Part shown: piece after piece, positions 42,210-64,000 of the stretch
Layout of the letters: each line of letters begins with the position of its first letter
Position numbering within the stretch: position 1 is the first letter of the stretch
Origin: Pomacea canaliculata
Lineage: Eukaryota; Mollusca; Gastropoda; Architaenioglossa; Ampullariidae
Direction of reading: 5' to 3'
Length of the DNA: 64,000 bases
NCBI RefSeq assembly: GCF_003073045.1
Contig: NC_037593.1
Span: 12,656,735-12,720,734, forward strand
Program-made: the position numbers and the translations under genes
Notes under the pieces: generated by a model
Database searches by the model: none
What the model was told of the DNA's origin: nothing
Seen by the model: only the letters and a program-made list of their open reading frames with translations

Positions 42210-45200
42210 ATGTTTGTTCCGGCACTCGCCTTGTTCTTGACCTTTGCACTCGCATCTGGCGACCCGAACAGTAAGCATGCTTTCCCTTTCTCAGATGTTG
42301 GAGCGATTCACTGCAAAGTTTCTGGCAATCGTATTCACATGAAGAGAAATATTGTTTTCACACTTTAGGCCTGTATATAATAAAAGTATTGGAATGCGTG
42401 TATCCTAGCAGAGTCGAACGCACTTGTGATCTATTTCGTCAATGTGTGTGTGCGCGTGCGTGCGTGCGTGCGTGCGTGCGTGCGTGCGTGTGTGTGTGTG
42501 TGTGTGTGTGTGTGTGTGTGTGTGCGTGCGTGCGTGTGTGTGTGCGTGCGTGTGTGTGTGTGTGTGTGTGTGCTTGCAGGATTACCTTTCTTGAACTTCA
42601 ATTTTTTTCTCTGACTTTCCTTTTTTCTCTAATTTGAATTATTTTAAATTCTCTTTATATTTCTCCTGTCCCTTTCCTTTGTTAAAATTGTGATTTAATG
42701 CTCAATTCTGAATGTAAATGAACTGTGAAAAACACAGGCTGCCAGGGCAGGTGTTTCGCCCAACTGGACACATCACAGCCCTGCCAGTGTAACACCTACT
42801 GTGAACGCTATGAGGACTGCTGTTCAGACTTTTTCACTCTTTGCCGGGGTGAGATGTTTGCTCAGGCTGTGGACGTTAACCTTGAATGATAAAGACCGAT
42901 GCTAAATACTGATTATACATGCTTTACATCACATCCTTAGTCTTTATATAATAGCACTCTTAAGCAGTTTCCTTTACCTCATAAATTTTTATCTATTTGT
43001 TTACTAACAAACCAATCCACCTTACATACAAGCGTTGAAATTGTGTCAAGGGCAGATAATTAGTACAGTACACAGATATCTATCAGAATCCGACAAATAC
43101 CACAAGAGGGCTACCAAATACCAATAGAAGTTTAAGGCAGTCGTCAAATCTTCTCTAATAATTCGACAGGCATAGAAAATTGTCATCACATATCAGCTGC
43201 CGATCTGGCCAAGGTGGCCCAGGACATCTACGCAGCTGATGAGAACCAGGTTGACGGATCCCACTACAAGCTGAACTTCCAGAAGCGATATAGTACTGGA
43301 GTGGACAACCCCCTGGCGTACGTATTTCTGTGTTTGCGTCTCTAAATACTCATTTCATTACTTAAACACCCTCCAGTCTCCCATCCACATAAATGACACG
43401 CACATACCTCATCGAGTTGTGCACGCAACAAGCAATCTCGTTGGTCACACCCTACCGATGGTCTACTCCAACCAACGCCTGCAGGCAGTCTCTCTTTGGC
43501 AGTTCTGCTCCAAGTACTCGTAAAACTAATAAGCATAAAAGAAACTGTTATGTTAGTTTAAGACAGTGTGAATTATGCTTATTATAACGTTTAGCTGTTG
43601 CACGTGAAACTACAGAGAATGGCATTGTACTGTTTGGGGTTTTGAGTGCTGTGGTCTGAGAGAATAACAATGCTTGGTTGTTACAGATTTGTTACAGAGC
43701 ATTAGGCCGAATTAAAAAAAATAGTATTGCCTGTTCTGGATATTGTAGGGCAGTTATCAAAACCTTATCTATATATATATATACACTCCTCGTGTTTGGT
43801 TACTTTAAACTATTCCCCCTAGTTTACATTGCATATAGCAAATAACATATTTTGCAAGTCAATGTGTAACAGACATAAAACAATGTAGCATTTTAATGTA
43901 AAGGGAATGTTAAATTTCCCAGTTTACCCCATTTGTTTAAGACAAGATTACTAATATCACTTATCTAGTGTCAGACTAGACAAAATGCTTGAAGGTCTCT
44001 TTCTGTTTTGCAGATTTTTCACCAGTCTGGACGAAACCGTCTTCCAGAGTGCAACATTTAAAGGCCTGTCGGACTTGGAAGACAACTATGAGAAAGTTGT
44101 AAGAAATCACTACTCCTGAAAGATCACACCTCAACATATCCATAAGGGTCACATGCGCACACACACACACGTACGCACACTACCTGTTTCTTTCTTGCAC
44201 GCGATTTTCTGAAGAGAGGTCCTTTTCAAAGGAAGCATGACCAAGAGAAAATTGGGGTCACATCGCTCATGCAATAATGCATAAACCAAAATTATAGATA
44301 TATTTTATTTCGTGTGTGTGTGTGTGTGTGTGTGTGTGTGTGTGTGTGTGTGTGTGTGTGTGTGTGTGTGTGTGTGTGTGTGTGTGTGTGTGTGTGTGTG
44401 TGTGTGTGTGTGTGTACGTTCAGGTTCATGTTCAAGAGAACTACACTGCTGCCGAATGGGCTGAGGTGCAATCGTTTATTTCCAATGTGGTCAGCTCGGG
44501 ACCCATGGGAGTTGCTTTGGAGTTCTTAGCGGCGCGAGGTAAGTTATCCATAAGTACATAGTACTTCAGCCAGGTAAAGGTGTTGCTTATGGCATGGAAC
44601 TAAGCTAAGTAATCCTGTGATGTAAATGAAGCGTATAGATACATGAAAGGCTACCTGGGGAATGTCAGCATGAATGAACGGATCTCTCTATGTAATTATA
44701 TGACAAAGTACGTGAGAGTTCCAAGTATATTTTAAGATAGACAGGTCGTTTTTTTCTAGGGTGCATCTCAAACAATACAGAAGCTTGGAAGACCCTGATC
44801 GAAGAGATCTGGTTTAACCTTTACTCCCGCACGGAAGGCACCAGCTCTGCTCACGACAGCTCTGGGTTCGAACATGTCTTTCTGGGCGAACTTCGAGGTC
44901 ACTCTGTCTTAGGGTTAAACAACTGGATTGAGTACTACAAGGAGGAGAAGAGTGGGAGAATTAATTATTTGGGCTGGATAGACTACATGACGGTAAGAGC
45001 TCTGTACTTAATAAAACCTTGCATATAAAATCTAGGATTTTTCGCTTCAAAAAAAAAAAAAAAATGTATAAATGAAGACTTAAAGAAGCTAAGTGGCAGA
45101 TGAATGGGTCGCTGGAAAGTTGAGATTAGAGCAAAAACTTCGCCCGTTGAACCACTCAGGATGACTGCGTTCAATAAAGAAAAAATGAAAAGCAAACTAC

Positions 45201-45835
45201 TTCTTAGAAACTTATAGAGAATAGGAACTGCATGAGCATATCACCAGATATAGAAATGCCTCCTTTAATCCAGTTGGCTGTTGAGTAAAACTGAAATAAG
45301 TCATCAGGGAAGGAAACATGGCTCATGGCAGCTAATCATCTCATAGATTGTTATTGTATGAATGTATGAGTAAAATTTCTTTCCACAATATCATCGTCTT
45401 AGAACATGTGCTTATAACCTCTCGAACTGGTGGAAAATCTTTCTTGCTGAGAAAACATTTATCGGATTATTTTGTGTGATATCTAATTTAAGTGTCCACA
45501 CGTTGTCATTAACAACCTAATCTCGATATGTGTGTCTGTCTGTCCAGAATCCAAACATTGTGTCCATCAGCTTTGTGTGGGAGGGAGCACAAGCCCCTGT
45601 TCGTTCATTTTTCGTGGGGACGAGCCCGGAGTTCGACATGGCGGTGGCCACACTGTGTGCTGTAGCACGAGGTAACCAAGGGTGTCATCTGACCATCAAC
45701 GGCAAGTCCTTCACCTATCAGACATATGTTATTCGGCACAACCATAACCAACAGTTGCAGATCACCGCCGCCTATCCCATAGTTCCAGCTCACTCAGCAC
45801 CCGTCAACGCCACTGGGGAAGAACTCGTAGGATGA
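42210..45835 (+). CDS. Somatomedin-B/EndoU-domain secreted protein F (probable pseudoenzyme)
   Basis: Seven exons, 42210-42270, 42738-42848, 43170-43317, 44014-44098, 44424-44538, 44760-44992 and 45548-45835, give 346 residues. Residues 1-16 are the signal peptide. Residues 21-57 form one somatomedin-B domain (eight Cys, with CQGRCF, CQC and CCSDFF). Residues about 60-335 are an EndoU (XendoU/PP11) domain, normally a metal-dependent endoribonuclease that cuts at uridines. E211, H212 and E217 of GFEHVFLGE match the first catalytic His region. The second catalytic His is N227 (GLNNWIEYY, in place of G-F-H-N-W) and the catalytic Lys is A267 ([12 protein letters not shown]). The motif [14 protein letters not shown] is intact. 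The tail has a sequon ([10 protein letters not shown]). The intron before exon 5 ends in a long GT repeat. Ribonuclease activity is doubtful; a binding role is inferred. Confidence 0.93.
42443..42572 (+). repeat. (GT)n/(GCGT)n microsatellite
   Basis: A compound GT and GCGT tract in intron 1 of EndoU-like gene F. It causes Cys/Val and Arg/Ala repeat frames that are not genes. Confidence 0.95.
44312..44415 (+). repeat. (GT)n microsatellite abutting a splice acceptor
   Basis: About 52 perfect GT units fill intron 4 of gene F and stop only 8 bases before the exon 5 boundary (TACGTTCAG then exon). They occupy the place of the polypyrimidine tract. Confidence 0.97.
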
Positions 45836-63100: not shown

Positions 63101-64000
63101 TTTTGGCAAGGAAAGGGGAGAGGATGACGAATGAGAATCGATTCATCCTCGGTTAATCTTTCGTCTCTTCACCTACTTCTCTTTGTCTTTATCTTAAGGC
63201 AGCAACCAAAAACAAACACCCGTCTTACTCCGTTGTCTTTACGAAATACTAAGGCCACGACACTTCGTCAACGTTGAGATTATTCCTGTCTTTAATGTGC
63301 TTAACTCTAGTTGTCTAGGACATACTATCTTCGCACTCCATCTTTCTTTGATCTACTTCCCTGTGACTTCTAGCATCTTTCTCCTAACCCTTTTTGCTTA
63401 TTTATTATTTTTTTTACCTTCTCCTGGTCACTAAAAAATATCTGTATATTTTTATCGTACATGGATTTGTCGGAAAAGTCAAATCAAAGAAACAGCATTT
63501 ATTTTTGAAGAAAGGATATTTTTATTGTTTGCTAGTATTTTTGTGAGTACTGCTGGGCGTATATTCTTCAGAAGTTTGAACGCACCTTGTTTCAGTCCTC
63601 ATTTTTCCTTTTTTTCACTTTTGACTACACCTTATTTAGCCATCTTACACCATTGATTTCTCTTGGTAGTTTGCTGCAGAAACCATCTCAGTTTTATTTT
63701 AAAGTAGTCCTGCTATATATATATAAGGCATTTTGTTCCGTTTGGCACTCTAAGAGCATGCCAAAAGGATAACTAAGTTGGGAGAGAATGTTGCAGATAC
63801 TGTGACTAATGCACTCCTCCGAAATATCCAAAGCAAATATTCAAACTAAATCCCCTCCCCCTTTTCTTTTTCCTTTGTCGTCAGAACCCTAGCATGGTGT
63901 CCGTCAGCTTCGACTGGCTCGGTATCCAGGCTCCTATTCGCTCTTTCTTCGTGGGTGTGAGTCCCGAGTTCGACATGGCCCTAGCTACTGTCTGCGCTCT
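60118..64000 (+). CDS. Somatomedin-B/EndoU-domain secreted protein I (cut by window end)
   Basis: Seven exons, the last incomplete: 60118-60184, 60732-60842, 61320-61467, 61705-61789, 62115-62232, 62667-62899 and 63885-64000 (292 complete codons seen). Phases match F-H. The signal peptide is MYLTVLFALWLLFCVTRTQG. The somatomedin-B domain has all eight Cys (CQNRCF, CQCDRFC, CCSDFYDLC). This is the most divergent copy: the first catalytic motif is GFQHVFLGE (Glu to Gln, His kept), the second His is Phe (GFFNWLTFY), and the catalytic Lys is Ala (WLGIQAPIRSFF). Exon 5 has one extra codon and an acidic stretch (FDDDADDE). Two donors are weak (GTCTGT after exon 3, GTATTT after exon 4), yet splicing there restores frames that match the paralogs exactly. 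Confidence 0.85.
61645..61670 (+). repeat. (CT)n(AC)n microsatellite
   Basis: A short CT run followed by AC units in intron 3 of gene I, about 35 bases before the exon 4 acceptor. Confidence 0.85.
62520..62577 (+). repeat. (TTG)n/(GGT)n trinucleotide tract
   Basis: TTG units followed by GGT units in intron 5 of gene I. They cause Cys/Trp-rich frames that are not coding. Confidence 0.9.

Follow-up and report, generated by a model that had tools for sequence, protein, structure and literature searches.

The window analysed here is a 64,000-nucleotide stretch of the apple snail Pomacea canaliculata genome (contig NC_037593.1, hereafter C4, positions 12656735-12720734) that carries four genes, designated F, G, H, and I, arranged head to tail on the plus strand (Table 1). 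Each couples a somatomedin B (SMB) domain to an EndoU domain of the XendoU/human ENDOU (PP11, PF09412) family. EndoU enzymes have been studied from animals to coronaviruses; they cleave at uridine by means of a His-His-Lys active site and, in animals, possess a calcium switch. A first-pass annotation, made from the sequence alone, had proposed that the whole array has lost two of the three catalytic residues and consists of selected pseudoenzymes, not decaying genes.

All four genes comprise seven exons with open frames and intron phases 1, 1, 2, 0, 1, 0. The models were built by hand, with splice sites picked manually (GT donors, AG acceptors), and several donors are weak, mainly in gene I. 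The sequence of this last gene was extended along the contig to its stop, which ends at C4:12720900, 166 bases beyond the window. Exon 1 encodes a hydrophobic N terminus in every copy, exon 2 the SMB domain with eight cysteines, and the remaining exons the EndoU domain; the products are SMB-EndoU proteins, probably secreted. Matches to Pfam XendoU (PF09412) have E values of 1.1e-72 (F), 1.5e-73 (G), 1.9e-69 (H), and 3.1e-54 (I), and those to Somatomedin_B lie between 1.5e-8 and 1.1e-9, the values for gene I referring to its part within the window. Two extra cysteines common to all four copies (C62 and C175 in F) could pair. Exon 7 encodes the second half of the active site (position 224, the SPEF motif, and position 278) and a C-terminal tail common to the array, in which the His of a VP-x-H motif is invariant.

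Comparison of the copies by blastn locates their nucleotide similarity at exon positions, and intron lengths differ; two gene F introns contain long GT-rich microsatellites (about 44312-44415 and 42448-42575). A tblastn search detected no further EndoU copy in the part of the window upstream of F (best E 0.12), in the 10 kb that precede the window, or on the downstream side as far as C4:12.740 M (million bases).

Table 1. Features of the window, in window coordinates, with the array genes first and their neighbours last
Feature	Position	Strand	Structure or evidence	Content
Gene F	42210-45835	+	7 exons, 346 amino acids	SMB + EndoU
Gene F, H178 position	44918-44920		codon	Asn
Gene F, K224 position	45593-45595		codon	Ala
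Gene G	48754-53291	+	7 exons, 337 amino acids	SMB + EndoU
Gene G, H178 position	51973-51975		codon	Asn
Gene G, K224 position	53076-53078		codon	Ala
Gene H	54190-59552	+	7 exons, 342 amino acids	SMB + EndoU
Gene H, H178 position	58452-58454		codon	Asn
Gene H, K224 position	59316-59318		codon	Ala
Gene I	60118 to past window end (64000)	+	7 exons, 347 amino acids once completed	SMB + EndoU
Gene I, H178 position	62825-62827		codon	Phe
Gene I, K224 position	63930-63932		codon	Ala
Exon 6	F 44760-44992; G 51815-52047; H 58300-58526; I 62667-62899	+		First active-site half (E161, H162, E167, position 178)
Exon 7	F 45548-45835; G 53031-53291; H 59271-59552; I from 63885	+		
V-ATPase subunit H match	2388-2717	+	Pfam E 1.4e-10	
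TAAHC His motif	14336; 24681; 31630; 38165	+	motif search	
GDSGGP Ser motif	16026; 21277; 26231; 40236	+	motif search	

Active-site residues of the array

Residue numbers come from aligning the array proteins with their best solved relatives, XendoU (2c1w) and human ENDOU (9ftw), and these alignments have few or no gaps around the active site; XendoU E161, H162, E167, H178, and K224 are equivalent to human E284, H285, E290, H300, and K343. The array resembles both enzymes over the whole length of the EndoU domain and shares with human ENDOU the position of SMB ahead of EndoU, although the human protein has two SMB domains and the array proteins one. The SMB domains of vitronectin and ENPP2 are also alike by sequence, whereas those entries have no EndoU match.

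The first catalytic His, H162, is kept in all four copies, as the annotation had read from their FEHVF motif (FQHVF in I); the pair E161-H162 is intact in F, G, and H and becomes Gln-His in I. At the second, H178, genes F, G, and H have Asn (GLNNW versus GLHNW in XendoU) and gene I has Phe, and the catalytic Lys, K224, is Ala throughout (MVKPVGS in XendoU versus AVAPIRS in G). Both replacements agree with what the annotation had described, as does its spacing of 15 between the two His positions, common to the array and human ENDOU (16 in XendoU). The active-site Ser/Thr (XendoU T278) is likewise Ala in all four copies, gene I included after completion. A check for alternative active-site residues, a possibility raised in the annotation, revealed no substitute His or Lys at the H178 and K224 positions of the four-copy alignment. 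S229, named for XendoU in one study (PMC3482391), was considered as a further lost catalytic residue and dropped: the human residue is Ala, and the array shares its Phe with the bacterial relatives described below.

In a mutational study of human ENDOU (PMC11275989), activity is abolished by H285A, H300A, D179A, E284A, and E290A, about halved by K343A, and unharmed by mutation of E226. Since H300A alone is dead and K343A about half active, loss of the second His would be the most important change in the array, to which the Lys and Thr losses add. The proposed loss of two catalytic residues is confirmed; loss of the Lys alone would not be decisive. Of the human calcium and relay residues, D179 and E290 are present in all four copies and E284 in F, G, and H (Gln in I); the calcium-site residue D330 is replaced by Asn in F, G, and H and by Ser in I, which also has Phe at Tyr280 and, in the alignment used, Tyr at human E226. 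Because D179, E284, and E290 are conserved in F, G, and H, the fold of these three proteins is predicted to be probably still steadied by calcium.

RNA cleavage could conceivably persist through a rebuilt site, in which H162 acts together with another His, for instance that of the tail VP-x-H motif, standing in for H178. H162 and E167 (human E290) are indeed present in all four copies, the invariant tail His is missing from three related copies elsewhere on C4, and the partial activity of human K343A implies that loss of Lys alone would not be lethal. H300A is, however, dead by itself, and Ser/Thr278 and Lys224 have gone as well; besides H162 and the tail His, the array has a single common His column (XendoU H272, by our own count), which is not His in human ENDOU and hence is not a family catalytic residue. 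A rebuilt site is considered very unlikely.

The specificity of the losses was assessed against relatives from a scan of prokaryote genomes, which yielded 75 bacterial sequences (loci L001-L075). The scan patterns included GF[EQ]HVF[LV]G and a WF motif, so the conservation of those columns follows in part from the search itself; neither pattern contained H178, K224, or S/T278. XendoU-like domains were observed in cyanobacteria, Rhizobium relatives, Enterovibrio, Grimontia, Latescibacterota, Polyangium, and others. An earlier scan of genome contigs with SMB patterns returned no relatives, scans of viral contigs and of phages none, and a plasmid scan five distant matches. H178 is His in 75/75 of the bacterial relatives and K224 is Lys in all 72 with a residue there (three are gapped), and because both positions are so uniform, the array losses are not attributable to chance.

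A panel of 80 sequences was then assembled from 74 bacterial relatives (one locus left out), XendoU, human ENDOU, and four dispersed snail copies. The second His is His in 80/80, and Lys occupies K224 in 79/80, the exception being the snail copy on contig C10, whose row is out of register at a frame break next to the Lys. S/T278 is Ser or Thr in XendoU, human ENDOU, all four dispersed copies, and 62 of the 74 bacterial sequences, the remaining 12 being gapped. Twenty XendoU positions have one residue in at least 95% of the panel: 17 are kept in all four array copies, in keeping with the annotation's view that the rest of the EndoU domain is well conserved, E161 is kept in three copies, and the two missing from every copy are H178 and K224. 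Drawing precisely this pair at random from 20 positions has a probability of 1 in 190, a figure that assumes independent positions, and some of the conserved columns were ones that the search pattern selects for. When the comparison is confined to the six eukaryotic sequences outside the array, 26 positions are invariant, a list from which K224 is absent because of the misaligned C10 row; six of these (R149, S157, E161, H178, Y242, and Y280) are altered in at least one array copy, H178 and Y242 in all four. To judge from these alignments, the two catalytic positions stand out despite changes elsewhere, Y242 foremost.

Selection, descent, and the dispersed copies

Pairwise synonymous divergence (dS) to gene I is saturated or unstable, and hence a codon model of four taxa was used, with 314 gap-free codons and the tree fixed as ((F,G),H,I). 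The overall ratio of nonsynonymous to synonymous rates (dN/dS, omega) is 0.185, with a likelihood-ratio statistic (2dlnL) of 267.7 versus omega = 1. The per-branch comparison that the annotation had suggested gives values below 1 on every terminal branch, with p about 0.01 or less versus 1: 0.22 for F (5e-4), 0.23 for G (2e-5), 0.26 for H (0.01), and 0.10 for I (2e-24). The array copies are under purifying selection since their split.

A maximum-likelihood tree built from the catalytic half recovers the array as one clade (bootstrap 100) that groups with the three dispersed copies on C4 (99); the C10 copy sits with XendoU (98). Within the array, the newick gives a support of 55 for F, G, and H versus I, and the protein tree pairs G with H, at only 55, whereas the fixed codon-model tree joins F to G; the value of 55 printed on the array in the rerooted tree is read as a label displaced by rerooting, the newick value for that split being 100. 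Since the array is one clade, the His and Lys losses probably took place on its stem.

The dispersed copies were identified in a PF09412 search of the genome (440,159,624 bases, 24 contigs), in which the best candidates were scored and 20 matches listed. Among the matches listed are the four array genes and four copies elsewhere, at C10 9.618 M and at C4 15.516 M, 15.521 M, and 25.106 M; two weak matches also occur in the snail genome, on C1 and C5 (E 0.28 and 0.36). All four dispersed copies have both His residues and a Lys before SPEF or SPQF, and the 15.516 M copy has an SMB exon upstream. The three on C4 are nearest to the array clade in this shared domain, but differ from it in keeping His/His/Lys and in being apparently frame-broken. 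Apparent breaks within exons number one in the C10 copy, two at 15.516 M, at least one at 15.521 M (the least certain case), and at least two at 25.106 M (locus L088, about 5000-6500, minus strand), the last with an additional compensating pair in the stretch that separates the Lys from SPEF.

As a yardstick for assembly quality, 56 chaperonin exon pieces (12.4 kb) were examined: no two lie less than 110 bases apart, and none is apparently split by a frame break, although the yardstick is rough, several pieces containing stop codons that were taken as introns. The published P. canaliculata assembly spans 440.07 Mb, with 439.5 Mb in 14 chromosomes, and was built from PacBio reads with Pilon correction (PMC6129957). 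The unsplit chaperonin pieces hint that the breaks in the C4 copies reflect real decay rather than assembly error. Assembly error is a possible cause, and is least excludable for the C10 copy, which has an active-site exon with 65% identity to XendoU.

Decay could also be invoked for the array itself, with its members on the way to becoming pseudogenes: they have lost residues that hardly vary elsewhere in the family, and the dispersed EndoU copies appear frame-broken. Against this, the frames are open across seven exons in all four genes, omega is far below 1, most near-invariant positions are kept, and the similarity between copies is concentrated at exon positions. Decay of the array is barely credible on this evidence, and the annotation's choice of selected pseudoenzymes over decaying genes is upheld.

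Charge and candidate functions

The EndoU domains of the array are markedly acidic, with net charges of -15 to -17 versus -2 for the XendoU segment and -6 for the human segment, both of which are short of some end residues in this comparison. Over the catalytic half, the values are -6 (F), -5 (G), -8 (H), and 0 (I) versus 0 for XendoU and -4 for human ENDOU. Human ENDOU binds RNA via the beta-sheet of its catalytic core, and a basic RNA groove has been described in it (PMC11275989). The strong acidity of the array domains argues against such a groove and favours a ligand that is a protein or an ion, although the milder contrast in the catalytic half renders the charge argument moderate.

These charges bear on whether the array proteins could be RNA-binding decoys or carriers, with a groove that holds single-stranded U-rich RNA uncut and thereby protects or sequesters extracellular RNA. 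Most near-invariant EndoU positions are intact, SPEF and GxxNW included, and the RNA-contacting beta-sheet of the human enzyme belongs to this same catalytic core. The acidity counts against it, however, as do the Ala at Ser/Thr278 in all four copies and the Phe at Tyr280 in I. RNA decoys are therefore held to be unlikely, and the annotation's suggestion of RNA binding is weakened.

The preferred explanation, to which we assign a probability of roughly 0.78, is a tandem family of four secreted, non-catalytic SMB-EndoU pseudoenzymes, a putative assignment made from sequence. An SMB-EndoU ancestor would have lost His178, Lys224, and Ser/Thr278 and then given rise to four genes held by purifying selection. 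The products would be exported by means of an N-terminal signal sequence, and the disulphide-rich SMB domain together with the intact acidic EndoU fold would form a non-catalytic binding module. Loss of ribonuclease activity, secretion, calcium binding, and a binding function are thus what we infer for these proteins, whose job is most likely a non-cutting one.

Several observations weigh against this explanation. Y242 and other eukaryote-invariant positions are also altered, and so change is not limited to catalytic residues; H162, E167, and (in three copies) E161, which are catalytic or activation residues, are retained though a purely structural role would not obviously need them. The omega values cover the period after the copies split and not the stem on which catalysis would have been lost, and the branch test gives no information on the short stem uniting F and G (omega 0.51, p = 0.72 versus 1). 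Finally, the losses are common by descent and count as about one event, not four.

Surroundings of the array and relation to known systems

Upstream of the EndoU array lie tandem trypsin-like serine protease exons (window 14336-40241, plus strand), which retain their catalytic motifs, unlike the array. Pfam Trypsin was run on four such stretches, of which one scored above the cut-off, two just below it, and one gave no match; a GDSGGP regular-expression search had no match for the protease copy starting near 31.5 kb.

Pseudoenzymes are already known as a kind. The mammalian RNases 9-13 of the RNase A family are clustered, secreted RNase folds that have been under selection after loss of catalytic residues and serve as reproductive-tract proteins; they differ from the array in family and lineage. 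A limited literature search, outside subscription papers and supplements, found no description of an EndoU pseudoenzyme, and the main texts of the apple-snail genome and egg papers examined do not mention ribonuclease, somatomedin, EndoU, uridylate, or placental protein. A clustered, selected EndoU set would be a new form of pseudoenzyme.

It is possible, and is offered only as a tentative suggestion, that the main EndoU product in this snail lineage is now a set of pseudoenzymes, with the dead copies intact and selected and the three nearest His/His/Lys-bearing copies degenerating, the former perhaps acting in a secreted fluid as acidic glycoproteins that bind calcium. Set beside XendoU and human ENDOU, with which it shares H162, E167, SPEF, and the calcium residue D179, the array amounts to a natural mutant set: the domain, the first His, and most calcium residues are kept, whereas the second His, Lys, and Ser/Thr are dropped and the EndoU domain is more acidic. 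The strong selection acting on these genes suggests that EndoU proteins may have a role that does not involve cutting.

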